Source: a virus
Strand: one strand, 5' to 3'
Length of the DNA: 33,080 nt
Virus record (IMG/VR): IMGVR_UViG_3300032046_000125
Coordinates: 1-33,080 of that record
Under the pieces are notes generated by a model. That model was not told the origin of the DNA. It saw only the letters and a program-made list of their open reading frames with translations, and ran no database searches. The translations under genes and the position numbers were made by a program. Every line of letters begins with the position of its first letter. Positions within the stretch are counted from its first letter, which is position 1. Shown here piece by piece: positions 3,738 through 32,599 of the stretch.

Positions 3738-4970
3738 ATGCCAAGATATAATGATAATGAGAGTGAAATTTTTGAAAGTTTCGTAAAAATCGCCAATGAA
3801 AAAGGGCTGATTTCTAAGGCAAAGCCACATGAATACCGTTCTCCTAAAGAGATTGCAGATCTTCATGGCGTAAAACCAGATATGATTCCGGGTATGAAAT
3901 ATGATAAGAATATTTTAGAGGTATCTCACCCAGATACTTTTGTTGTCTTACCAACTCATGATAGAATTAATGGTCTTCTTGAAAATATTACGGAACGCCA
4001 TAATATAATGGTTAATATTGTTCAAAAAAGAACTTACGGTAATTTGAATACCAGAAAACTTGCTCAAGATCAACTTATGAAGTCTTTAGTTAAAGTTGCT
4101 AATGATTTAGATAATAGAGATGCTGAAGAATTAAGAGTTCTTGCAGATGCTTGTATTGATGATTTAACCAAACAAGCTGGTCTTTGGGATGATATTAAAG
4201 GATATTTTAGTGGTGGTAAGCCTGGCGGTGATGTAGTTGATGTTGGAACTGGCGCCCTTGGTGGTGCGGGCGTTGGCGCAACTGTCGGAGCTATTATTGG
4301 AGGCGCAGTTCTTGGCGCCGGGACAGGGGGCGCTGGCATTTTACCTGGAGCTTTGGTTGGAGCACAAATTGGTGGTTTGGCTGGCGGGCTCCTTGGAGGG
4401 TTGGTTGCAGATGTCGCTAAAACAGGACCTCACGCTAGCTCTGTATCTAACAACGCTAAAATTGCTATTGATGCACTTAAGCCGTTGATTAGTAAATTTC
4501 CTAAAATTGCGCTTTTAACAACGCTTAATAACGAATTAATGAAATTAAAGGTATTTGCTGAGCAATATGCTACTATTGCCGGTAATCCTGATGCAACGGT
4601 TAGCAATCCTGATGCAGTAGAAAAATTTACCAAAGCTTATCTTGCTCAAATGGATAAAATTAAACCATTAATTGGTCTTTTTCAAGCAGAAGTTGATCAG
4701 GGAGATTTTGCCTCGGCAACGAGCAGCTTATTATCTTGGTTTATGAATGATGATGCTGAAAACGTTACTAAAGCATTAGGCGTTCTCGATACCGTTATTG
4801 ATAAGGCAAAAGAAGGTTTTAATAAGGTTAAAAGTAGCACACAAGCGGTAGTTGAACAGACTAAAAAAGAAGGTCCAAAGCCTGCTGGCGAAAAAAAGGA
4901 TAAATCTTTGGAAGAGATGGTTGCCGATTTAAAAAAGGATCATCCAGCTATCGAAAAATATTTAGGATAA
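3738..4970 (+). CDS. Glycine-zipper virion protein, 410 aa
   Basis: The ATG at 3738 follows GAGG about 5 bases upstream. The N-terminus carries an amphipathic helix (IFESFVKIANEKG, residues 11-23), and a similar one recurs inside (LMKSLVKVANDLD). Residues about 170-222 form a long Gly/Ala-rich hydrophobic block with GxxxG spacing (GAGVGATVGAIIGGAVLG and similar), a glycine-zipper pattern typical of proteins that insert into membranes or oligomerise there. The rest is helical and charged, with a Lys-rich tail (KKEGPKPAGEKKDK). It is the last gene before the intergenic leader of the decoration protein. Membrane insertion during DNA entry is inferred; a purely structural role is the alternative. 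Confidence 0.7.
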   Translation: MPRYNDNESEIFESFVKIANEKGLISKAKPHEYRSPKEIADLHGVKPDMIPGMKYDKNILEVSHPDTFVVLPTHDRINGLLENITERHNIMVNIVQKRTYGNLNTRKLAQDQLMKSLVKVANDLDNRDAEELRVLADACIDDLTKQAGLWDDIKGYFSGGKPGGDVVDVGTGALGGAGVGATVGAIIGGAVLGAGTGGAGILPGALVGAQIGGLAGGLLGGLVADVAKTGPHASSVSNNAKIAIDALKPLISKFPKIALLTTLNNELMKLKVFAEQYATIAGNPDATVSNPDAVEKFTKAYLAQMDKIKPLIGLFQAEVDQGDFASATSSLLSWFMNDDAENVTKALGVLDTVIDKAKEGFNKVKSSTQAVVEQTKKEGPKPAGEKKDKSLEEMVADLKKDHPAIEKYLG

Positions 4971-5030
4971 AAAGCTCTCAAATATATCAATAATCGAATA
5001 TAAAGTTATTGTAAGTACAGGCGTAAGACA

Positions 5031-5047
5031 GGAATTCAAAGAATTCC
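5031..5047 (+). promoter_or_regulatory. Perfect hairpin in the 5' leader of the decoration gene
   Basis: GGAATTC, loop AAA, GAATTCC: a 7-bp perfect stem with a 3-base loop, ending 22 bases before the ATG at 5070 and just upstream of its AAGGA ribosome site. There is no U-run, so it is not a terminator. A stem this close to a highly expressed gene could stabilise the mRNA 5' end or be an RNA-processing site. The gap 4971-5069 otherwise holds AT-rich sequence (GAATATAAAG) that could include a promoter. Confidence 0.45.
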
Positions 5048-5069
5048 GGAAAATTCAAGGAAAAATAAC

Positions 5070-5747
5070 ATGGCATTAAAACTATTACAACCAGGCGGAC
5101 AACCATTAGGACAATTCGACTGCCTCGACGCTGATCTTTCAGCAATTTTAGGCGGAGAAGTTATGACTTTCGGTACTGCCGTTGTCGCAACTGATAAAGG
5201 CGCTTCTGACGTCGCTGACGGTTATTTAAACGCATCAACGACCAGAGCTGTCGTCAAACTTAAGAAAGATCCTACAACGGCATCTACTCTTATGTTGTCA
5301 GACGATGGTACCTCAGGTTACGGCACTCTTTTCGGAACCGTCGTTGGCGGAACTGTTGGTAGAGTCGTTACCGGTGGTGTGGTTCTTGGACCAAGCTCTC
5401 AAACTGGTTCAGGTAAAGTAACTTGCTGGATGACCCCAGGTCTTTATGCTGTTACTCTTGACGCATGCGACATGACCACCTCAACTGGTCTTGTTACAAA
5501 CAACGCAACTTGCGTTCCAGGCTGCGCACTTGGACCAAACACCTCAGGTTTATTAACCCCAACCAACGGTTCTGGTTACAGTGCAACGTCTATCGCAGGG
5601 CGCTTCGTTTCTTTCGAAACTGACCGCACCTTAGTCAATACTCCAAACAGATTAGTTGCAGCATTAAATAGCCCAGGCGGCGCTGTTGCCGGCTCTCTTG
5701 CTCAAAACTATACCGTTGCAGTGTTCCACTTCAATCCAACTGTATAA
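5070..5747 (+). CDS. Probable capsid decoration / head-associated protein, 225 aa
   Basis: The start follows AAGGAAAAATAAC. The protein is beta-rich, with Gly/Thr/Val-heavy composition and no membrane or signal segment. It begins LKLLQPGGQPLGQFDCLDAD and ends VAVFHFNPTV. It has at least five cysteines (FDC, VTC, DAC, ATC, PGC), which is many for a phage shell protein and leaves room for disulphides. The gene lies immediately upstream of the major capsid gene with its own leader and a strong terminator. It uses the same C-ending codon set (TTC, GAC, AAC, ATC) as the capsid gene, as expected for a protein made in similar copy number. Small beta-rich proteins next to the capsid gene are commonly decoration proteins. 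The family was not formally identified. Confidence 0.65.
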   Translation: MALKLLQPGGQPLGQFDCLDADLSAILGGEVMTFGTAVVATDKGASDVADGYLNASTTRAVVKLKKDPTTASTLMLSDDGTSGYGTLFGTVVGGTVGRVVTGGVVLGPSSQTGSGKVTCWMTPGLYAVTLDACDMTTSTGLVTNNATCVPGCALGPNTSGLLTPTNGSGYSATSIAGRFVSFETDRTLVNTPNRLVAALNSPGGAVAGSLAQNYTVAVFHFNPTV

Positions 5748-5753
5748 CTAATT

Positions 5754-5773
5754 GATTAGCTGAAAGGCTAATC
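5754..5773 (+). terminator. Small hairpin after the decoration gene
   Basis: GATTAGC, loop TGAAAG, GCTAATC: a 7-bp perfect stem just after the stop codon. It has no T-run, so alone it would be a weak terminator or an mRNA 3'-end protector. It sits 14 bases before the strong terminator. Confidence 0.5.
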
Positions 5774-5787
5774 GGTAAAAATATAAA

Positions 5788-5823
5788 AGAGAGGTAGAGA
5801 AATCTATCTCTCTTTTTTTTTAT
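5788..5823 (+). terminator. Strong intrinsic terminator between decoration and capsid genes
   Basis: AGAGAGGTAGA, loop GAAA, TCTATCTCTCT: an 11-bp stem with one G-T pair, followed directly by an unbroken run of eight or more T. It is a textbook rho-independent terminator and separates the transcripts of the two shell genes. Confidence 0.9.
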
Positions 5824-5932
5824 TTATTTTATCAAAATCTAGGAATATAATAATATTAATCTAGATTCCCTGAAAAGGGCATTTGTTTTAGCTGATAAGA
5901 TCGGCAAATAATTCAACTAATGAGGAACAAAT
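5824..5932 (+). promoter_or_regulatory. Leader and probable promoter of the capsid gene
   Basis: Because a strong terminator lies just upstream, the capsid gene should have its own promoter here. TATAAT occurs at 5846-5851, with no clear -35 box. An inverted repeat AATCTAG / CTAGATT (5836-5842 and 5861-5867) and a small CCCT-GAAA-AGGG hairpin (5868-5879) follow. GAGGA lies about 6 bases before the ATG. No protein-coding frame is evident. Confidence 0.4.
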
Positions 5933-6946
5933 ATGAATATGTTTAACAATAAAGGCGATATGAACGCGTCCGGCTTAAGAGACGCTTTACAAACACTTGT
6001 GAAATATGCCGCGATACTTGAGGAGAATACTCCTTCTAACACCGGTATGGCTGGTCAAACGTCTTTGTCTGATGACAAGCGTGACGAATTAGTTACCCGC
6101 GCAATTATGACTCAAGAAGGCAAAATTGCTTTAGCTCAAGCGATGGCAAATCCAATTCGTAGAAACTTAGACTACCATGGAATTGCACGTAGAGCATTAG
6201 TCGTTGATGCATTAGCACAAGGTGCATATCCATCATACGAAAGAGACATCGACGTCTCAGCCGTTGTTATTTCAAGCAACGGAACTGGTCCAGAATCACG
6301 CGTCTTCGGTGACCGTGTTGTTGTACCAACCTTCGAACTTTATTCTAACCCAACGGTCAGAATCTCAGAAGTTCGTCGTCGTAGATTTAACGTGATTGAC
6401 AGAGCCGTTCAAAAGGCTCGTCAAGAAATCATGGCACAAGAAGACGCGAACGTGTTCGCAGCCATTGATGCAGCAGCTTCAGTCGAGAACACTGTTCAAG
6501 ACATCGCTGATGCAGGTCTTCTTAAGAGAGACCTTGTTGAGTTGAAGGCTCAAGTTGATCGTTGGGACTTAGTTACGACTAAGTATTTCATGAATATCAA
6601 CGAATTCACCGATATCCTTAAGTGGGGTTCTGGTGGTGGTCAAGCTGCATCAAGCGGCGGAGAAGTAGATCCAGTTACGATGAGAGAAATCCTTCAAACC
6701 GGACTTTACGCTCACATCTGGGGAGCTGACATCATGGTCAGCAAAATCGTTCCACCAGGAACCGTTTATGCTTGTGCAGATCCAGAATTCGTCGGCGTCA
6801 TGCCAATTCGTCAAGACATCGAAGTTCTTCCAGCAGATGAACCAAAACAACTTAAGTTAGGTTGGGTCGTTTCAGAAGAAATCGGCATCGCGATAGTTAA
6901 TCCTCGCGGCGTGGCAAAAGGAAATAAGTCCGCTGTAACGCAATAA
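5933..6946 (+). CDS. Major capsid protein, HK97 fold
   Basis: The main shell protein. It has the order expected of HK97-fold capsid proteins. First comes a helical N-terminal arm (residues 1-40, LRDALQTLVKYAAILEEN, then a Ser/Thr/Gly linker). Next are NPIRRNLDYHGIARRAL and a long helix with RRRRFNVIDRAVQKARQEIMAQED. A Gly/Ser loop with WGSGGGQAAS follows, and then the characteristic ending EVLPADEPKQLKLGWVVSEEIGIAIVNPRG. At 337 residues it is a normal capsid length. Codons are shifted to ATC, TTC, CGT, GAC and CTT compared with neighbouring genes, indicating very high expression. It is flanked by terminators on both sides. The N-terminal arm might be removed by a prohead protease; the sequence does not show a proven site. 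The identification is from remembered family pattern, but I am fairly sure of it. Confidence 0.88.
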   Translation: MNMFNNKGDMNASGLRDALQTLVKYAAILEENTPSNTGMAGQTSLSDDKRDELVTRAIMTQEGKIALAQAMANPIRRNLDYHGIARRALVVDALAQGAYPSYERDIDVSAVVISSNGTGPESRVFGDRVVVPTFELYSNPTVRISEVRRRRFNVIDRAVQKARQEIMAQEDANVFAAIDAAASVENTVQDIADAGLLKRDLVELKAQVDRWDLVTTKYFMNINEFTDILKWGSGGGQAASSGGEVDPVTMREILQTGLYAHIWGADIMVSKIVPPGTVYACADPEFVGVMPIRQDIEVLPADEPKQLKLGWVVSEEIGIAIVNPRGVAKGNKSAVTQ

Positions 6947-6983
6947 GTATAAATAACAAAACGGTCTTCTAAAGATCATTTAT

Positions 6984-7017
6984 GACTCGGTAGATTTATC
7001 TACCGAGTCTTTTTCTT
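6984..7017 (+). terminator. Strong intrinsic terminator after the capsid gene
   Basis: GACTCGGTAGA, loop TTTA, TCTACCGAGTC: an 11-bp perfect stem followed by TTTTTCTTTT. It lies 38 bases after the capsid stop and isolates the capsid transcript from the tail operon. Confidence 0.92.
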
Positions 7018-7040
7018 TTATGCAACTATAAGGATAATTC

Positions 7041-7055
7041 GATATCATATAGAGG
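7041..7055 (+). promoter_or_regulatory. AT-rich promoter-like element before 7068
   Basis: GATATCATAT occurs here, between a terminator and the next gene. AATATCATAT or AATATCATTA occurs before other gene starts (21451, 30427, 32018). CTATAAGG lies just upstream (7026-7033). A promoter is needed here because of the preceding terminator; which bases form it is uncertain. Confidence 0.3.
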
Positions 7056-7067
7056 TTTATCAATCGC

Positions 7068-7763
7068 ATGACCATTAAATTGTATGCTGAGATTTTTGAT
7101 GATATAATTGCTGGGACGAAAAATTTTTCGTCCTATAAGCAAGGCACTCAATTGCATAAACAATGCTATAACAGCATAATTAATCCGGGATTAGTAAAAT
7201 TAGCCTTTGATTCTAGAAGGATAGACCAAGAGACAGAGTTTAATCCAAGAAGAGGGTTACAATTCTACAATAGAAGCGATGCATTTCTTTCCGAGGGCAT
7301 TGCCTCTAAATTAAAACATTTTGAGCGGTTGAAAGTCATCCTAGATAATTTAAAAATTAAGTTTGGCAAGAAGCCTGCCTGGCAAGATAGTTATACAAGA
7401 GTTCTTTTAAATTCAATTGAGAGGGCTTTAAGGACCAATCAACAGGATGGCGATTACACTGACAATCAGCCCGGCGTAGGAAGTTTTGATTATTTAGAAG
7501 AGATGTTATATGTTAGATATAGGCTGCAACCAGATGATTTAGTAAATATGACAGATGAGCAACTAATTAAATCCATTTTATCAAAAGATGAAGAGTTAAT
7601 GAAAGATACAAATGATGCCCATGAGATCACTCGCTCTGACGTAGCAACTCAACCATATGATTCATTAATAGAAAAATTATTTGGTGGAATAAAGGCAACA
7701 AAAGAAAACCCTGAAGTTGAACGCACAGTAACGATAACAATAAAAGATAAATTTGTGGAATAA
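7068..7763 (+). CDS. Hypothetical virion protein, 231 aa
   Basis: First gene after the capsid terminator; AGAGG lies about 11 bases before the ATG. The protein is mixed alpha/beta, highly charged and without membrane segments. Recognisable stretches include FNPRRGLQFYNRSD and a helical block with LKHFERLKVILDNLKIKFG. The final 30 residues look like a beta strand rich in Thr/Val (VERTVTITIKDKF). It is followed 2 bases later by the next gene. Genes directly after the capsid gene often encode neck or head-completion proteins, so that is the best guess from position only. I do not recognise the family. Confidence 0.6.
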   Translation: MTIKLYAEIFDDIIAGTKNFSSYKQGTQLHKQCYNSIINPGLVKLAFDSRRIDQETEFNPRRGLQFYNRSDAFLSEGIASKLKHFERLKVILDNLKIKFGKKPAWQDSYTRVLLNSIERALRTNQQDGDYTDNQPGVGSFDYLEEMLYVRYRLQPDDLVNMTDEQLIKSILSKDEELMKDTNDAHEITRSDVATQPYDSLIEKLFGGIKATKENPEVERTVTITIKDKFVE

Positions 7764-7765
7764 AA

Positions 7766-8422
7766 ATGGCATATGATACTTTCGCTCCCTATAAGAAAAA
7801 GAACGGATGTTTCATTGTTAGAAATGTTACGCCTGATAGAAACAAAACTATCAGAATTTTTGGCAATCCCATTCTCTTTAACTGCACCAGAGATATCCTC
7901 GCTATAACTGGCGTGGCAGAATCTGACATACGCGCGTCCTTATTAAAGGGAGAGCTTCAACATAAAATCTTAGCCAAAGATATTGTAGTTGAATGTTCTG
8001 ATATTGATCTTCTTCAATTTAATGATGAGCAAAAATTATTTTTGCAAAATGCAGGAATTATAAAGGGCTTAGAGGTGTCTGCAGGATCTGGTATGACTGA
8101 TGTTCAGCACGAAACATTGCGTCAATTAATTCATTTAGCAGATGGTGTTGGTGGTCCGATGACCGGCTTCGCTTCAGGAGCTTTTAGAGAAACCTTACCG
8201 CTTGATGATCCCTTTCCAACATCTATTACCTGGTGGGATTCAAGCTCTAAATCACTTAAAATTGTGGAGAAGAACTTATCATATGATGCTAATAAAAGAA
8301 TAACCGTAACTGTCTGGAAAGTTTATGACGAAGGCGGTATTTTATTGGCGACGGTAACGGATACATTTGCTTATAATGGAAGCTCTCCATTTGAATCATC
8401 TAGAACGAGAGTAATTACCTAA
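7766..8422 (+). CDS. Putative tail/virion structural protein, 218 aa
   Basis: A two-part protein. The N-terminal half (to about residue 105) is mixed, with CFIVRNVTPDRNKTIRIFGNP and a helical part. The C-terminal half is beta-rich and begins after GMTDVQHETLRQLIHLADGVGG. The C-terminal pattern FPTSITWWDSSSKSLKIVEK, then VWKVYDEGG, then TDTFAYNG is typical of small beta domains shared by several tail proteins of large phages. The stop overlaps the next ATG by one base, so expression is coupled. A structural role is inferred from pattern and operon; the exact position in the virion is unknown. Confidence 0.6.
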   Translation: MAYDTFAPYKKKNGCFIVRNVTPDRNKTIRIFGNPILFNCTRDILAITGVAESDIRASLLKGELQHKILAKDIVVECSDIDLLQFNDEQKLFLQNAGIIKGLEVSAGSGMTDVQHETLRQLIHLADGVGGPMTGFASGAFRETLPLDDPFPTSITWWDSSSKSLKIVEKNLSYDANKRITVTVWKVYDEGGILLATVTDTFAYNGSSPFESSRTRVIT

Positions 8423-10182
8423 TGGCAGATTCACCTGCGGCAATTCTGTTTGATGTAAATGGCAATCCAGTTGGAACCGTCATTGATGGTGTATTTTATC
8501 GTCTTCAGGTTGAAGCAAAATTAGCACCGGGCACGAGCACCATAGGTAAAGTTGATCAAGGCGCACCAAATTCCAGCATAAACGCTTGGCCAGTTAGCAT
8601 TCAAAATGCTACGATGCCAAATATTCAAAACCTATCAATCGAAACTAATTTGGCAGTAGATGGTTATAATATTAATGCCGGTATATATTCTGCAAGCGTA
8701 ACATTTACAAATGACGCTTTATTGGCGGCATTAGAATTAAGATTCTCAACAACGGCATCTCGTAATATTTCTGTGTCTATAGATGGTGTAACTATACTTT
8801 TTTCTGAAACAGCAAATACATCGCTACTTTTAGAACTGGATTTTGAGGATTATGCTATTGATACTGGAACAATAGTAACATTAACAATATCACAAGCCGG
8901 AGCGGCGTGCCTTGCTGATATTACATTAACTTCAAAAGTTTCAACGCCAGTATCTGGAGTTAATCCAATATTAGGCTCTGGAACAAGTCATATAGGATCC
9001 ATCTCTATAGATTCAAATAACTCTGGATCCACTGATGCTTTTGGAAGATTACGCATTTCAAATCCACAATCTCTTTTTGAGGTGACACATCAATATGATT
9101 TGGCTCCAAGATTAATGGGGTTGCAGCGACAAGACGCTAGTACAAGCATTACTCACAATTCCCCTGTTGCAACGCTTTCGGTACCCGCCATTGCTGGAAG
9201 AAAAATAGTTCATCAGTCACACCAACATATAATTTATCTTTCAGGTAAAAGTCATTTTATCCGTATGACGGGTACGCTTGATGGCGCATCAGCTATTGCT
9301 GGCATGGGGTATGGAGATAATGCTGATGGTATTTTTCTAGAAAATAATAGCGGCACAATACAGCTTGTATTTTTATCATCTACAATTGCAAATCAAACAG
9401 TAACTCAAGCAAATTGGAATATAGATAAGCTTGACGGATATGGCACTAGTGGTTACACATTGGCAACATCTGTAGCTTATCATTTGGTTATTGATTTATC
9501 GTGGCTTGGTGTAGGTAGAATTCGTGTTGGTTTAGATATTGGCGGAACACTTATATATGTGCATCAATTTATATTTTCAAATGTCGTAACAACCGCTTAT
9601 ATGCGAGCTGGGAGCTTACCAATTCGATGGTATCTAGAAAGCACCGGGTCGGTAGCCTCTATGCAGTGCATTTGTGCGTCTGTGTCTTCCGAAGGCGGAC
9701 ACGATCCATTAGGAATTACATATTCTGCCGCTAGAACGACAGCAAAAACTACATTAGGTTTAGGTACCAGAACTCCATTAATATCATTAAGACCAAAATT
9801 AACTTTTAATGCATTGGCTAATAATGTTCATTTATTATGGAATAATATATCATTTTTAGCTACAACAGCCGATAATCTTTTTGTTGAAATAATTATGGGA
9901 GGAGCACTTGCAGGAGCATCTTGGACATCGGTAGATGCTGATAGTCATTCCGAGTTTGATCAGGCGGCTACAGCCATTACAGGCGGTCGGGCAATATATC
10001 AAGATTATGTATCATCGACGACACGAGGACCATTAAGTGTTGCGGGGCAAATTAATTTAAAAACATTACCGCTAACATTAAATGCCGATGGAACGCAAGA
10101 TAATGTTACCATTTGCGTTACTAGAATTGGAAATAATAATGCTGACTGTTTTGCCGGATTTAATTGGCGAGAGGTGCATTAA
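8422..10182 (+). CDS. Conserved phage virion structural protein, 586 aa
   Basis: All-beta, Ser/Thr/Gly-rich, with no catalytic motif. Residues 1-195 hold small beta modules (DVNGNPVGTVIDGVFYRL). From the hinge DAFGRLRISNPQSLFE a large jelly-roll-like domain follows, with QSHQHIIYLSGKSHFIRMTG, GYGDNADGIFLE, WNIDKLDGYGTSGYTL, DLSWLGVGRIRVGLDIGG and ICASVSSEGGHD. I recall this series of motifs from virion proteins annotated only as structural in many environmental phages. The next gene repeats the hinge motif (DNLGNLRIT), so the pair probably shares a connector and may form one appendage. Start and stop overlap neighbours by one base on both sides. Confidence 0.72.
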   Translation: MADSPAAILFDVNGNPVGTVIDGVFYRLQVEAKLAPGTSTIGKVDQGAPNSSINAWPVSIQNATMPNIQNLSIETNLAVDGYNINAGIYSASVTFTNDALLAALELRFSTTASRNISVSIDGVTILFSETANTSLLLELDFEDYAIDTGTIVTLTISQAGAACLADITLTSKVSTPVSGVNPILGSGTSHIGSISIDSNNSGSTDAFGRLRISNPQSLFEVTHQYDLAPRLMGLQRQDASTSITHNSPVATLSVPAIAGRKIVHQSHQHIIYLSGKSHFIRMTGTLDGASAIAGMGYGDNADGIFLENNSGTIQLVFLSSTIANQTVTQANWNIDKLDGYGTSGYTLATSVAYHLVIDLSWLGVGRIRVGLDIGGTLIYVHQFIFSNVVTTAYMRAGSLPIRWYLESTGSVASMQCICASVSSEGGHDPLGITYSAARTTAKTTLGLGTRTPLISLRPKLTFNALANNVHLLWNNISFLATTADNLFVEIIMGGALAGASWTSVDADSHSEFDQAATAITGGRAIYQDYVSSTTRGPLSVAGQINLKTLPLTLNADGTQDNVTICVTRIGNNNADCFAGFNWREVH

Positions 10183-18145: not shown

Positions 18146-19006
18146 ATGAGAGCGCTAGTTTTATCAGGCGGTGGAAGTAAAGGAAGCTATCAAGCTGGTG
18201 CTCTTAAATATATTTTAGGTGAATTGAAAATTCCATATGACATATTTTGTGGTGTTTCAGTTGGTGCTATTAATTGTGGTTTTCTAGCTCAATTTAAAAC
18301 TGGAGAAGAGGTAGAGGGCGTCACCCAACTAACTAAGCTTTGGGACGAAATAGATACGCCTAACATTTATCAGCGATGGAAGCCTTTTGGAAGATTACAC
18401 GCTCTTTGGGAAAAAAGTTTTTATGATAGCTCGCCTTTACATAAATTAATAAAAGATAAAATATCAATAGACAGAATTAGGTCGAGCAATAAAAAAATTA
18501 ATATTGGAGTCACCTCATTAAGCTCTGGCAAATATACAATTTTCGATCAAGTTCATCATTCTTTTATTCAAGCTATAATTGCCTCTGCCTCTTTTCCAGG
18601 AATGCTGGGTCCGGTCAAAATAGATGGTCACTGGTGGGCTGACGGCGGCGTAAAAGAGATTACTCCCATCAAAACAGCCATTGATCTTGGAGCTACTGAA
18701 ATTGATATCATCATGACCTCCCCAGAAAAAAGGGTTAAATTTTTCATGGAAGAGCCGAGCACCGCAGATATCATTCAACGAGTAATCGACCTGGCGTCAG
18801 ACAAGATTATGTCAAATGATATTGAAAAAGCAATCATGTATAATCGCTTGGCTGAAGTGGGCTATCCAGATAGAAAAATAATTAAAATTAACATAATTCG
18901 ACCTAAAAATAATTTAATTGAAGACCTTCTAGACTTTAACCCCATTAAAATCAAGGAAATGATGCAAAGGGGTTATCATGATGCTGCAATTAATTACAAA
19001 ATCTAA
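18146..19006 (+). CDS. Patatin-like phospholipase
   Basis: A Ser-Asp dyad lipid acyl hydrolase of the patatin family, which cleaves acyl chains from phospholipids. All the hallmark sites are present: oxyanion loop GGGSKG (residues 8-13), nucleophile Ser38 in GVSVG (36-40), ASASFPG (146-152), and catalytic Asp166 in DGG. At 286 residues it has the size of bacterial patatins. No signal peptide or membrane helix is visible, and there is no fused cyclic-nucleotide sensor domain. The gene lies 3 bases after the beta-helix gene and 31 before another structural gene, so it is made with the tail operon. This placement suggests a virion or late lytic function, for example attacking host membrane lipid during entry or release. 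An effector acting in the infected cell is the alternative. The ribosome site is weak. Confidence 0.9.
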   Translation: MRALVLSGGGSKGSYQAGALKYILGELKIPYDIFCGVSVGAINCGFLAQFKTGEEVEGVTQLTKLWDEIDTPNIYQRWKPFGRLHALWEKSFYDSSPLHKLIKDKISIDRIRSSNKKINIGVTSLSSGKYTIFDQVHHSFIQAIIASASFPGMLGPVKIDGHWWADGGVKEITPIKTAIDLGATEIDIIMTSPEKRVKFFMEEPSTADIIQRVIDLASDKIMSNDIEKAIMYNRLAEVGYPDRKIIKINIIRPKNNLIEDLLDFNPIKIKEMMQRGYHDAAINYKI

Positions 19007-28495: not shown

Positions 28496-29392
28496 ATGAC
28501 TATAAAAGCACGCGGCCAAACGCTCGATGTCTTAGATCAAGTCAATTTAATCGTTCAATTTAAAGATCAGAACGGCGCTCCGATTGATACCGACTCTTAT
28601 CCAACTATATCTATAACTCAACCAAGCGGGCATGTTTTATTCGCCGGAACAAGTGCGGGCGTGGCTCGCGTCTCCACCGGTAGATATAGTTATATCTTCA
28701 CCATTCCTTTAACTGGACCTTATGGTATTTTTAATGATAATTGGGTAGGTCTTATTAACGGAATACAAGTCACGGCATCTTTTAGTTTTGTTGTTGTTAA
28801 GACAGATGTTCCAGGTATAAATAGTGATGGTTATGTCCATTTAGGAGATATCTTTCCATTAACCTATTCTCAAACATCAATTCAAAATATCAATAAACTT
28901 CTTAGGATTCTAAAAGCAAGATTGAACAGTTCAGGAAAAGCCCCAAGAACTATTAATGGTAATTTAACCTATGTAGATTGCGATATTTTTTCTACGGATA
29001 CATTGGTGAGTCTTTTAGGAGCCGCTCTTTCAGATTTTAATCAGGTTCCTTATTTCACCGCTTTTACTTTTGATGAAAGTGATTTCGTAACACAATTTAC
29101 AGAGATACTTGTCGAAGGTGCAACTTTATATGCCCTATCCTCTCAAGCTCTTATTGAAAAAGGCAGAGAGTTTCAATTTACCGATAACAGTATTAACTTT
29201 AATCCACCAAGCATGGGAGATATGTTAAATACTCAGTATAGCACATTATTAACTCACTATTGGGAAAAGCTTAAATATATAAAGAACTCTTTACGACCAG
29301 GACCAAAAGGATTGGGAGTCTTCGGAATGACCAGTGGTTTAAATCCAGCTATTGCAAGATTACGGCATTTGAGACAGCGTAGAGTGATTTGA
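28496..29392 (+). CDS. Baseplate/tail structural protein with Ig-like and helical domains, 298 aa
   Basis: GGCAGGA precedes the ATG. Residues 1-100 form an Ig-like beta sandwich (VNLIVQFKDQNGAPIDT, GRYSYIFTIPLTGPYG, VTASFSFVVVKTD). A linker with NSDGYVHLGDIFPLTYSQTS follows, then a helical domain with RILKARLNSSGKAPRTIN. The C-terminal block (ALIEKGREFQFTDNSINFNP, SMGDMLNTQYSTLLTHYWEK, RPGPKGLGVFG, ARLRHLRQRRVI) is a pattern I recall from conserved structural proteins of large phages. The very basic C-terminus suggests contact with acidic partners. The next gene is a homing endonuclease, placed just after this conserved gene. Confidence 0.72.
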   Translation: MTIKARGQTLDVLDQVNLIVQFKDQNGAPIDTDSYPTISITQPSGHVLFAGTSAGVARVSTGRYSYIFTIPLTGPYGIFNDNWVGLINGIQVTASFSFVVVKTDVPGINSDGYVHLGDIFPLTYSQTSIQNINKLLRILKARLNSSGKAPRTINGNLTYVDCDIFSTDTLVSLLGAALSDFNQVPYFTAFTFDESDFVTQFTEILVEGATLYALSSQALIEKGREFQFTDNSINFNPPSMGDMLNTQYSTLLTHYWEKLKYIKNSLRPGPKGLGVFGMTSGLNPAIARLRHLRQRRVI

Positions 29393-29432: not shown

Positions 29433-30428
29433 ATGAAAAACAAATTACTTGATCTTCTCACTCCCGAACAATTAAAACAAGAATTAATCGATGTAGGCTC
29501 TGCTACTAAAATAGCAAAGAAATACGGTATTAATCCAATTACCGTTTATTCTGCATTTAAAATTTGTGGAATTAATTGTATTATCAAGCCTAAACAAGAT
29601 AAACTGCTAACAAAAGAATTATTAGAAATAACGTACGCTGAGCTAGGCAGTCTCAAAGCCGTAGCTCGTAAATTCGATGTAGATTCTGGCACAGTAAAGC
29701 GCTATATGCAACAGCATAGCCTAGAATTTAAGCCTCAAGTTAGACATGATTGTGATCATGAATTCTTTTCAAGAGATAATCAAGAATCATTTTATCTGGC
29801 AGGATTTATTGCTGCTGATGGTTGTGTCAAAATTCATTCTAATGGCAATTCATATCAAGTTCAGATTGGATTAGCCAAATCTGATAAAAAATTTCTAGAA
29901 AATATTAAAAAATCATTTAAGGCTGAAGCGCCCGTTAATGATTTCATTGTTAAAAATTCTAAGCGCAATCCTAAATGGAATGATACTTGGAAAAGTGAAT
30001 TAACAATTACATCAAAACAAATGTTTGATGATCTTGTACGATTTAATATAGTTCCAAGAAAAAGCTTAATCTATACGTTTCCTGAATGGTTAGCTGATCA
30101 TCCGCTATGCCATCATTTCATTCGTGGATACAATGATGGTGATGGCAGTTTTTATATACCTAAATTAGCGGAAGGTAAAATAACTAAACAAATATATTTC
30201 TCTTTAAGAGGTACTCCTGCATTTTTAGAAGTCGCACGCAACGTATTGCAAGAAAAATGTAACTTACCCGTTCGTGATACAGAAATTAGAATTTCAAGCG
30301 GACATGGTGTCCTAGAATATGGCGGCAACGGCATCGTCAGTAAAATAGTAGATTATCTTTATCAAGATGCAACTATCTATCTTCCTCGTAAATATGACAT
30401 CGCGATGAAACTAAAAGAATATGTTTAA
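29433..30428 (+). CDS. LAGLIDADG homing endonuclease with N-terminal helix-turn-helix domains
   Basis: A monomeric two-motif LAGLIDADG nuclease. Motif 1 is FYLAGFIAADG (residues 120-130) and motif 2 is HHFIRGYNDGDGSF (227-240). The acidic residues at their ends (Asp129 and Asp237) are the expected metal ligands. Two helix-turn-helix segments precede the core (ATKIAKKYGINPITVYSAFK, residues 24-43; LKAVARKFDVDSGTVKRYM, 74-92), as in phage free-standing homing enzymes. The length, 331, is intact. The ribosome site is weak, and TATAAATA lies at 29421-29428. It stands between a baseplate-type gene and an unrelated gene, with no intron visible around it. Confidence 0.88.
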   Translation: MKNKLLDLLTPEQLKQELIDVGSATKIAKKYGINPITVYSAFKICGINCIIKPKQDKLLTKELLEITYAELGSLKAVARKFDVDSGTVKRYMQQHSLEFKPQVRHDCDHEFFSRDNQESFYLAGFIAADGCVKIHSNGNSYQVQIGLAKSDKKFLENIKKSFKAEAPVNDFIVKNSKRNPKWNDTWKSELTITSKQMFDDLVRFNIVPRKSLIYTFPEWLADHPLCHHFIRGYNDGDGSFYIPKLAEGKITKQIYFSLRGTPAFLEVARNVLQEKCNLPVRDTEIRISSGHGVLEYGGNGIVSKIVDYLYQDATIYLPRKYDIAMKLKEYV

Positions 30429-30452: not shown

Positions 30453-31382
30453 ATGAAGTTAGATGGTCTTATAAATAAATGCAATCTCTTTTATAAAGTT
30501 GCTCGCAAGCAAGATAATTTAGAGATACTAAAATCTAATATTGGAAATTATATTCATTTTTCTAACTCTGATCGTTTTGGTATTTCCTATCACCACAATA
30601 TTCATCCGGGAAATCCGCGAGGAGTTTATGGGTTTCCACTCACCCCTGAATTATTTAATCTAATAACTAAAAATAATGCTCATATTGAAGATTATGGATA
30701 CTCAAAATATATTTACATTTTCAATACAACCGGCAATGTTCTTAATTTAGATAATTTTGATCTTAAAGAAGTTGCCAAGAAAATACGAGACTTTTTTGTA
30801 TCACAATATGGAGATAAAGTTAGTGATCTAACAATAAAAATGTTAGACCTGCATATTAGACAAATTGGAACTGGAATCATTGGTGGAGTTAAACCTCTTC
30901 ACGATATAATATCATCGGTTATAAATAGCCTTACCCTAAGTAATGTAATGGTTAATGAACATTCCGCTTTCAATGTTATTATTAGAGGTGCAGGGTTTGA
31001 TGCTATGGAAACAAGAAAGGGCGGATTCTTAGATAATATTAGAGAAGAAATTGTAATTCTTAATCCAGCCACCATCAATCTAATAACAAAAATAGATAAT
31101 CCAATGTTATCTAAAAAAGATGTAGATAAAATTAATTGGAAAAATAGTGATGAATATAAAGAACAACGCGAGCGAGCACGCCGAGCTAAAGAGTTTGAAG
31201 AGGAAGAAAGGTTAGATGCAATCAATCGTTTAAATAATGAAAGAGCAAAATTAAATCAAATGGAGCAAGATCTTAGAGAAGAACGAAAAAGAAGTGGTTC
31301 ATCTCCAGAATATTTAGCTAAGCTTGATTTGCATTTAGAATTAACTAAAAAACTTAATGAAAAATGGAAACATCTCTTCTAA
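30453..31382 (+). CDS. Putative ADP-ribosyltransferase-fold protein with coiled-coil tail, 309 aa
   Basis: The pattern YIHFSNSDRFGISYHHNIHP, then GVYGFPL, and later GFDAMETRKGGFLDN with REEIVILNP, matches my memory of phage proteins with an ART-like fold, where His, Tyr and Glu form the NAD site. Candidates here are His35, Tyr59 and Glu199. The canonical GYDG...NEPTQ end is altered to GFDA...NIREEIVI, so activity is uncertain. The N-terminus (LINKCNLFYKVARKQD) resembles the short helices at the start of head-region proteins, perhaps a virion-packaging signal. Residues 225-309 are a charged coiled coil (EYKEQRERARRAKEFEEEER). If active it would modify host proteins early in infection; this is inference. 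It meets the 2H gene end to end. Confidence 0.5.
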   Translation: MKLDGLINKCNLFYKVARKQDNLEILKSNIGNYIHFSNSDRFGISYHHNIHPGNPRGVYGFPLTPELFNLITKNNAHIEDYGYSKYIYIFNTTGNVLNLDNFDLKEVAKKIRDFFVSQYGDKVSDLTIKMLDLHIRQIGTGIIGGVKPLHDIISSVINSLTLSNVMVNEHSAFNVIIRGAGFDAMETRKGGFLDNIREEIVILNPATINLITKIDNPMLSKKDVDKINWKNSDEYKEQRERARRAKEFEEEERLDAINRLNNERAKLNQMEQDLREERKRSGSSPEYLAKLDLHLELTKKLNEKWKHLF

Positions 31383-32000
31383 TTAGCGCTGATGCACTCG
31401 ACGCTCAGTAGTCTTACTCAAAACACCATCATGGTCTCTTGAGGCTAATTTATGAAATACATTTGTCTTCTGAATGAGGAAAGAGTTCTTTTTGCAACTT
31501 ACCCCCTTTAGCGGGAAGGTAATAAAAATTCTGTCATCGCCATTATCTCCGCCCCAAAGTAGGATCTCGGTAACCGTAAATTCAATAGGCGAAACTTTTA
31601 AATCATCAATTTCTTCATCTGCATAGGATAAAGTAATGTGTGGTTTAAAATCTTTGAAGTCCGCTTTATAATCAATCTTTTCTTTATCGAATTTAGACTT
31701 TAGTTTTTTATTGAGAGATAATAGCTCTTTACTTTCCACCTTTGCAATAATAGGACAAGGACTATCTTCTCGTTTAGGAAAGCAGGTTATCTTTGAAACA
31801 GATACTTGAAAAGGTTCAACATCGCTAAGAACTTCGAAGGCAGCTTCCATAGCTTTCGCCAGCTCTTTAATCGGCCAATTTTCTTCAAAACAAAGAATGG
31901 TAATGTGTTGCTCAGCCTCCGAAACCTTTTCGCCAGGAAGGTTGATGCCCCTAAAAAGCCGCGTAATATCCTGTGCAATTTTAATTCCGATGAATGCCAT
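31383..32000 (-). CDS. 2H phosphoesterase (LigT/Acb1-like), reverse strand
   Basis: A two-histidine phosphoesterase. The two catalytic H-x-T motifs are HITIL (His32, Thr34) and HITLSYA (His121, Thr123), about 89 residues apart as the family requires. The start follows AAAGGAC. At 205 residues it has the family core (about 180) plus a basic C-terminal tail (SKTTERRVHQR). Members cleave 2',3'- or 3',5'-cyclic phosphates. In phage T4 the 2H protein Acb1 degrades cyclic oligonucleotides of the CBASS defence, so an anti-defence role is attractive; RNA-end processing is the alternative. Its stop abuts the stop of the forward gene with no base between them. Confidence 0.85.
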   Translation of the reverse strand: MAFIGIKIAQDITRLFRGINLPGEKVSEAEQHITILCFEENWPIKELAKAMEAAFEVLSDVEPFQVSVSKITCFPKREDSPCPIIAKVESKELLSLNKKLKSKFDKEKIDYKADFKDFKPHITLSYADEEIDDLKVSPIEFTVTEILLWGGDNGDDRIFITFPLKGVSCKKNSFLIQKTNVFHKLASRDHDGVLSKTTERRVHQR

Positions 32001-32017
32001 TAACTTGTCCTTTATAC

Positions 32018-32038
32018 AATATCATTATTTTGCTATAA
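32018..32038 (+). promoter_or_regulatory. Promoter-like element between divergent genes
   Basis: AATATCATTATTTTGCTATAA combines the 14-mer of 30427 with the TATTTTGCTAT element of 22868. It lies in the 77-base gap between the reverse 2H gene (start 32000) and the forward gene at 32078. It is the most complete copy of the shared motif. Confidence 0.4.
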
Positions 32039-32077
32039 AGGTAACCTTTCCCCAATTAAAAGTCAATGCGGTAAATC

Positions 32078-32599
32078 ATGGCAAAACAAGAAAAACCTAA
32101 AATATCCTTAGAGACGATTAAAAAAGTAAAGCCGGAGATTTTATTAAAATTAATCAATAAGGCTAAAGAACACCTGAAGACCGACGAGGTTATGCAAAGG
32201 ATCTGCAAAGAATACGATCAATCAGTAGATATGATTGATTTAATACCTACTACTTTTAAAGATTTAGATGTCAGTGCTAAGACAGACCACGGTGTCGTAT
32301 ATCTTAATTATAAGCTTTTAGAAGATGGAGATTTTCTTAAAGATTATTCTTATTTAATTCATGAGTACTCCCATTTCTTCCAACAATGCTTCATGAGTAA
32401 GCCAACTAAAGGCGCCGATGATGGGGAATACTTAGACAATCCATACGAAATAGAGGGATTCGTTAATCAGATAGAATATATAGCTAATGAATTAGGTGAA
32501 GATGAAGCTCATGATTATGTAGATGACCTTCTAGATCATCATGATATTGATGATAAAGAAAAGGATGATAAGAAAGAAACTCTGATGGCTCGGGTCTAA
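32078..32599 (+). CDS. HExxH metalloprotein/peptidase-like protein, 173 aa
   Basis: The sequence has HEYSH (residues 95-99), the zincin motif with two His ligands and the general-base Glu96. A downstream YLDNPYEIEGFVNQIEYI (residues 118-135) follows, whose Glu124 or Glu126 could be the third ligand. I recall HExxH followed by an NPxExEA-like element from small phage and ImmA/IrrE-like metallopeptidases. There is no signal peptide or membrane helix. An acidic C-terminal tail (DDKEKDDKKETLMARV) follows. It could cleave a host regulator or an assembly substrate, or be a structural zinc protein. The ribosome site is weak (GCGGTAAATC). Confidence 0.7.
   Translation: MAKQEKPKISLETIKKVKPEILLKLINKAKEHLKTDEVMQRICKEYDQSVDMIDLIPTTFKDLDVSAKTDHGVVYLNYKLLEDGDFLKDYSYLIHEYSHFFQQCFMSKPTKGADDGEYLDNPYEIEGFVNQIEYIANELGEDEAHDYVDDLLDHHDIDDKEKDDKKETLMARV

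Follow-up and report, generated by a model that had tools for sequence, protein, structure and literature searches.

The minus-strand gene at positions 31383 to 32000 of the viral DNA analysed here (IMG/VR record IMGVR_UViG_3300032046_000125; the whole stretch of 33,080 nucleotides is called the window) encodes a 205-aa protein that belongs to the 2H phosphoesterase superfamily, as judged from two HxT motifs, Pfam matches and a predicted duplicated fold. The protein possesses a conserved C-terminal tag, a new finding of this analysis. By sequence the major capsid protein of the window resembles that of phage G (52% identity to Bacillus phage G gp27 across 85% of its length). We suggest, with a probability of about one half, that this is a core-gene 2H phosphodiesterase of phage-G-like jumbo phages, a counter-defence effector that would be delivered or localised by its tag.

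The reading frame starts with ATG, has AAAGGA upstream and contains no internal stops. Catalytic motif 1, H32-I-T34, lies at 31899–31907 and motif 2, H121-I-T123, at 31632–31640, both on the minus strand and both intact, as an earlier note on this DNA had claimed. In the alignment of 20 family members H32, T34 and H121 were invariant and T123 was present in at least 90%. Estimates of dN/dS were about 0.02–0.13 in the 2H domain and 0.05–0.19 in the C-terminal tail, so that both parts are under purifying selection by this sequence measure. The same note had described the protein as longer than T4 Acb1, which it is (205 aa vs 152 aa for T4 57B/Acb1), and as having a basic tail. The tail is present and proved in the end to be the most informative part of the protein.

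Pfam matches were found to 2_5_RNA_ligase2 (PF13563, 43.9 bits, E 3e-11), LigT_PEase (PF02834, 39.5 bits, E 7e-10) and AKAP7 (27.0 bits). The NCBIfam ThpR model TIGR02258 scored 36.7 bits, not reaching its curated cut-off of 65.7. Given these Pfam scores and the low ThpR score, the protein was considered a 2H phosphoesterase, yet no clear member of any named subfamily. An AlphaFold2 model, for which six aligned relatives served as input, had a pLDDT of 77, with most of the 2H domain at 80–91 and the final 17 residues unreliable. Its top structural matches were drCPDase (5h7e, Z 19.2), TT0787 (1iuh, Z 18.5) and E. coli LigT (5ldi, Z 17.6), placing it in a LigT-type fold at Z 17–19 across 149–163 residues. 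Acb1 structures scored far lower (7t26, Z 11.4; 7t27, Z 11.2), with other 2H proteins in between. The 2H assignment of the earlier note was thus borne out by the 43.9-bit Pfam match and the predicted fold, and in the structural comparison that it had proposed the predicted fold was nearer to the CPDase/LigT group than to T4-type Acb1. A common fold leaves the substrate unfixed. With the CPDase, LigT and ThpR RNA 2',3'-cyclic phosphodiesterases the protein shares the 2H fold (residues 1–166), the two HxT motifs and the strand order, while the C-terminal tag and the basic tail are extras of the window protein. Two of the three ThpR proteins compared have HITLxR at motif 2, whereas the window protein has HITLSY, without the Arg.

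Relatives of the protein, 37–62% identical, were found in other jumbo-phage contigs of IMG/VR, as long as 512 kb. The gene lay antiparallel to its neighbours at the same place in 20 jumbo-phage contigs, window included (it is truncated in one). The syntenic order was a divergent HExxH gene, separated by a short common intergenic region, then the 2H gene, a variable slot and a conserved virion protein. In the window these are a metalloprotease-like HExxH protein at 32078–32599 on the plus strand (HEYSH at 32360–32374), the divergent partner of the 2H gene; a 309-aa neighbour, ART-like by eye, at 30453–31382 (plus); a LAGLIDADG homing endonuclease in the variable slot at 29433–30428 (plus); and the conserved virion protein at 28496–29392 (plus), which has a weak head-tail connector match and is present in all 20 syntenic contigs. 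Elsewhere the slot held homing endonucleases, small unrelated genes or nothing. LAGLIDADG and HNH-like homing endonucleases repeatedly fill it, in the window and in contigs L042, L043, L047, L056 and L008. The earlier note had placed the 2H gene between an ART-like and a metalloprotease-like gene. The positions are correct and the metalloprotease-like label is plausible, with the HExxH motif present in 20 of 20 homologues. The ART-like label was not confirmed: the 309-aa protein had no match of weight in Pfam, PHROG or NCBIfam, no relatives in phage or viral-contig searches, and a single-sequence model with a pLDDT of 48. The note had also proposed an anti-defence insertion; a recent one is ruled out by synteny in 20 contigs, the 2H gene being a positional core gene while the adjoining slot varies.

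In contig L062 (6001–6243), as in L063 and L064, only 80 aa of the 2H reading frame remain, directly next to the remnant of a LAGLIDADG homing endonuclease. No 2_5_RNA_ligase2 match was found elsewhere in the L062 contig. An intron was considered as the cause of this truncation and rejected, with no Rfam match and the second half absent nearby. The gene was apparently lost in this lineage and hence is one that can be lost. The best match in bacterial genomes was a 7.7-kb Planctomycetota MAG contig (L075, 31% identity), which is possibly phage-derived. Other bacterial-genome matches overlapped cellular ThpR genes.

The 2H gene is encoded among virion genes in the window and the syntenic contigs, as polyvalent-protein genes are. 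(The virion gene block of the window also has a patatin-like phospholipase-like gene with GGGSKG and GVSVG at 18146–19006, kept in relatives.) The 2H-family profile detected one 2H domain in each of the four related phage-G-like GenBank phages searched. Phage G encodes it in a gene of its own, gp240, which lies outside the virion genes and near DNA ligase. In Tunturiibacter phage Tunturi_5 it is part of gp321 (1362 aa), encoded between genes for a head-tail connector and a minor tail protein, a place matching the window locus. Besides 2H (46.4 bits), gp321 contains ART-PolyVal (163.6 bits, three stretches), GNAT (40.1 bits) and a SprT-like HExxH stretch whose 24.7 bits fall slightly below the cut-off of 25.6. 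In the 2039-aa Rctr197k_173 the 2H domain is fused with InPase and DUF7178. Both gp321 and Rctr197k_173 have the several unrelated domains per polypeptide that define polyvalent proteins. Fusions of 2H to capsid maturation proteases were also found in two actinophages. A 503-aa protein of an uncultured 485-kb phage (L094, LR745208) combines a 2H domain at its N-terminus with stretches of AxRVAxR type that recur.

That polyvalent proteins can include 2H domains was described in 2017 by Iyer and colleagues, who predicted injection together with an RNase or counter-nucleotide role (PMC5512222). A survey of jumbo phages made the same 2H/polyvalent prediction and added a role in RNA repair (PMC7824862). 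The window protein resembles the phage polyvalent and MuF/portal-fused 2H proteins (PMC5512222) in lying in the virion gene region, and the neighbours of its gene recall the metalloprotease and ART partner domains of gp321, with the ART-like label of the window given by eye. Unlike these fused proteins, it is encoded by a separate gene on the opposite strand and, by Pfam, holds one domain only, without the several unrelated enzymatic domains of polyvalent proteins. As HExxH, 2H and ART-like genes adjoin at the matching place, the window locus was read as a split version of a gp321-type protein. It is chiefly the 2H and HExxH genes and their position that carry this reading, because the ART neighbour is unconfirmed and without relatives in the collections searched. 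From these sequence comparisons we infer that the 2H gene is the single-gene counterpart of the 2H domain inside the polyvalent virion-region proteins of its relatives.

The C-terminal tag, LIQKTNVFHKLA, was delimited by alignment to residues 175–186 (31443–31478, minus strand), and the basic tail that comes after it, ending in TTERRVHQR, comprises residues 187–205 (31386–31442, minus strand). Tag residues L175, F182, K184 and A186 were invariant in a first six-member alignment. The pattern L-x2-K-x3-F-x-K-[IL]-A forms a C-terminal helix in the full-length syntenic family members, most of which have LTPSxERRKxER after it. Three distant family members, encoded elsewhere than at the syntenic locus, lack the tag. 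Contig L056 is not a true tailless exception, since the tail sits in another frame of the same gene. Among the loci read, the ERR part of the tail was confined to the 2H family but the tag helix was not. The tag recurs, without a shift in register, at the N-terminus of the window's 309-aa neighbour (LINKCNLFYKVA, 30468–30503), which opens with MKLDGLINKCNLFYKVA. The helix also opens a 166-aa and a 105-aa (weakly ParB-like) protein that occupy this slot in two other phages. Further proteins that begin with it include a slot protein of 129 aa and some with a weak likeness to peptidoglycan-binding proteins. The window neighbour and the weakly ParB-like slot protein aligned over residues 1–17 only.

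Among 1344 non-2H proteins from seven contigs, the tag pattern, refined after examples were seen, was N-terminal in nine proteins against 0.23 expected (maximum 3 in 2000 shuffles), the nine forming about seven families with some homologous to each other. Internal or C-terminal segments of these proteins held it in zero to one case. A stricter pattern, derived from 2H tails alone, detected two held-out proteins, both with an N-terminal match, and none elsewhere. Weaker forms (FESFVKIA, LLSELLKIA and LQTLVKYA) occur near the N-termini of head-region proteins at 3738–4970, 1104–2591 and 5933–6946 of the window; the major capsid protein is among the head-region proteins with such a form. Similar small proteins with tag-like N-termini were seen far from the 2H locus at 174384–175040 of contig G135 and 11218–11856 of contig G001, adjoining lipoprotein-like and virion-like genes. 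Contig G001 also encodes small CPRC zinc-ribbon-like proteins in a tandem run of about twelve (4858–8900).

The internal proteins of T4 are diverse defence proteins that are alike only in their capsid-targeting sequence (PMC3012670). Here, too, unrelated proteins carry one short terminal signal. However, its sequence differs from that of T4, and it is C-terminal on the 2H protein and N-terminal on the neighbours. By analogy, the tag may mark proteins for loading into the virus particle. A further reading, which we hold as tentative and rather doubtful, is that of a split polyvalent system, in which one virion locus would host interchangeable unrelated effectors (the 2H enzyme and ART-like, ParB-like, peptidoglycan-binding and other proteins) with a common 12-residue amphipathic-helix loading tag at either end. 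Since each would have the same loading tag, effectors could be swapped with delivery kept.

The 2H and HExxH genes have in common a 77-bp divergent intergenic region (32001–32077). In relatives the matching region contained a promoter-like site, TTGACA-17-TAGGAT, in one clade and the element TAAATAGTCATATT in another. The first of these or a close variant stood directly upstream of the 2H gene in six relatives (contigs L040, L041, L044, L048, L054 and G004), and it looks like a host-type promoter. The window itself had a weak promoter candidate only. Because TAAATAGTCATATT was rare in the contigs read, a general late-promoter role is not supported for it. Early synthesis of the 2H protein in the cell is suggested by the host-type promoter directly upstream in these six relatives. 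Such timing would fit counter-defence and not late packaging, though both in turn are possible.

The earlier note had seen a candidate Acb1-like or RNA-repair enzyme. The Acb1 profile PF23474 gave 27.0 bits for the window protein, at its curated cut-off of 27, compared with 202.7 bits for T4 Acb1. It matched 20 of 20 family members at E ≤0.01 (best 2e-10), and a profile comparison of the family with T4-type Acb1 returned a probability of 94%. A PF23474 search across 120 genomes had no match; the controls likewise had none and the search was uninformative. The Acb1 residues reported are H44/T46/H113/T115, the aromatics Y12, W74, F107 and W147, and E141 with a C-terminal lid (PMC9117128). We aligned seven T4-type Acb1 proteins with the 2H family. 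Window protein and Acb1 (T4 gp57B; FBB1 7t26/7t27) have the HxT/HxT tetrad and PHITLSY around motif 2 in common, and the Y12, W74 and F107 positions are aromatic in the window protein (F3, F74 and F115); ThpR enzymes, however, are aromatic there too. E145 and W149, conserved in the family, may correspond to E141 and W147, in an uncertain alignment with a different spacing. S50-R51, invariant in the seven Acb1 proteins, is replaced by F38-E39, leaving the window protein without YSR. It is also 53 residues longer and has the C-terminal tag where Acb1 has a short C-terminal lid. T4-type Acb1 genes adjoin the 57A tail-fibre chaperone and dNMP kinase, a context unlike that of the window gene. The tree separated the 2H family from Acb1 and an exclusive clade with T4-type Acb1 was disfavoured (AU p 0.029), but p rose to 0.31 when portal-fused and long-branch/Rhizobium-phage rows were added. 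Acb1 membership is not supported, on account of the CPDase/LigT-nearer fold, the PF23474 score at cut-off only and the change of S50-R51 to F-E, and the tempting label that generic profiles would assign is corrected here. Cleavage of cyclic oligonucleotides in the manner of Acb1 is a possible activity without such membership. The stronger proposal, of a divergent Acb1 that is made early from the host-type promoter seen in one clade, cleaves the cyclic di- and trinucleotides of CBASS and has a merely accessory tail, draws on the profile matches and the shared motif and aromatic positions; given the fold, residue, context and tree differences we consider it unlikely. An anti-defence or RNA-related role is still the best guess.

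The RNA-related alternative is end healing: where host defences cut tRNA and leave 2',3'-cyclic phosphate ends, the enzyme would open these and phage ligases would rejoin the RNA. CPDase/LigT enzymes are the best structural matches of the model, and an RNA-end repair role has been proposed for jumbo-phage 2H enzymes (PMC7824862). ATP-grasp RNA ligases were detected in four of eight relatives. Four of the eight contigs bearing the 2H gene, some of which may be incomplete, had no RNA_ligase match, however, and none of the eight had RtcB; the neighbours of the 2H gene in the syntenic contigs included no ligase family, and an association with RNA ligases is reported as absent for such 2H domains (PMC5512222). 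RNA repair is therefore possible but not favoured, and as the main function it seems improbable. It would be far more surprising if the tag were a virion assembly or scaffold-binding signal and the 2H protein mainly structural or regulatory, with catalysis secondary. The weaker motif forms on major capsid and other head-region proteins agree with this, but strong purifying selection keeps the catalytic His and Thr.

Our preferred explanation remains the tagged counter-defence effector. In this model 31383–32000 would encode a metal-independent 2H phosphodiesterase, a core gene of phage-G-like jumbo phages, whose probable action is to cleave cyclic-phosphate bonds of RNA or immune signal molecules. 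Its targets would be 2',3'-cyclic or similar phosphodiester bonds in defence signal nucleotides or at the ends of damaged RNA, and opening them would blunt host immunity. The tag would be a loading or localisation signal with a logic comparable to the T4 capsid-targeting sequence; if so, both the enzyme and the neighbours that bear the tag would be active as soon as infection starts. Points that weigh against the model are the host-type promoter of the six relatives, the location of phage G gp240 away from the virion genes and the lack of the tag in the three distant family members. Taken jointly, counter-defence in early infection and tag-based loading or localisation have about even odds. 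The window locus ties one gene to polyvalent proteins for which injection was predicted in 2017. Should the tag be a loading signal, every protein with the tag at its start or end would be a candidate injected effector of jumbo phages, whatever its fold.
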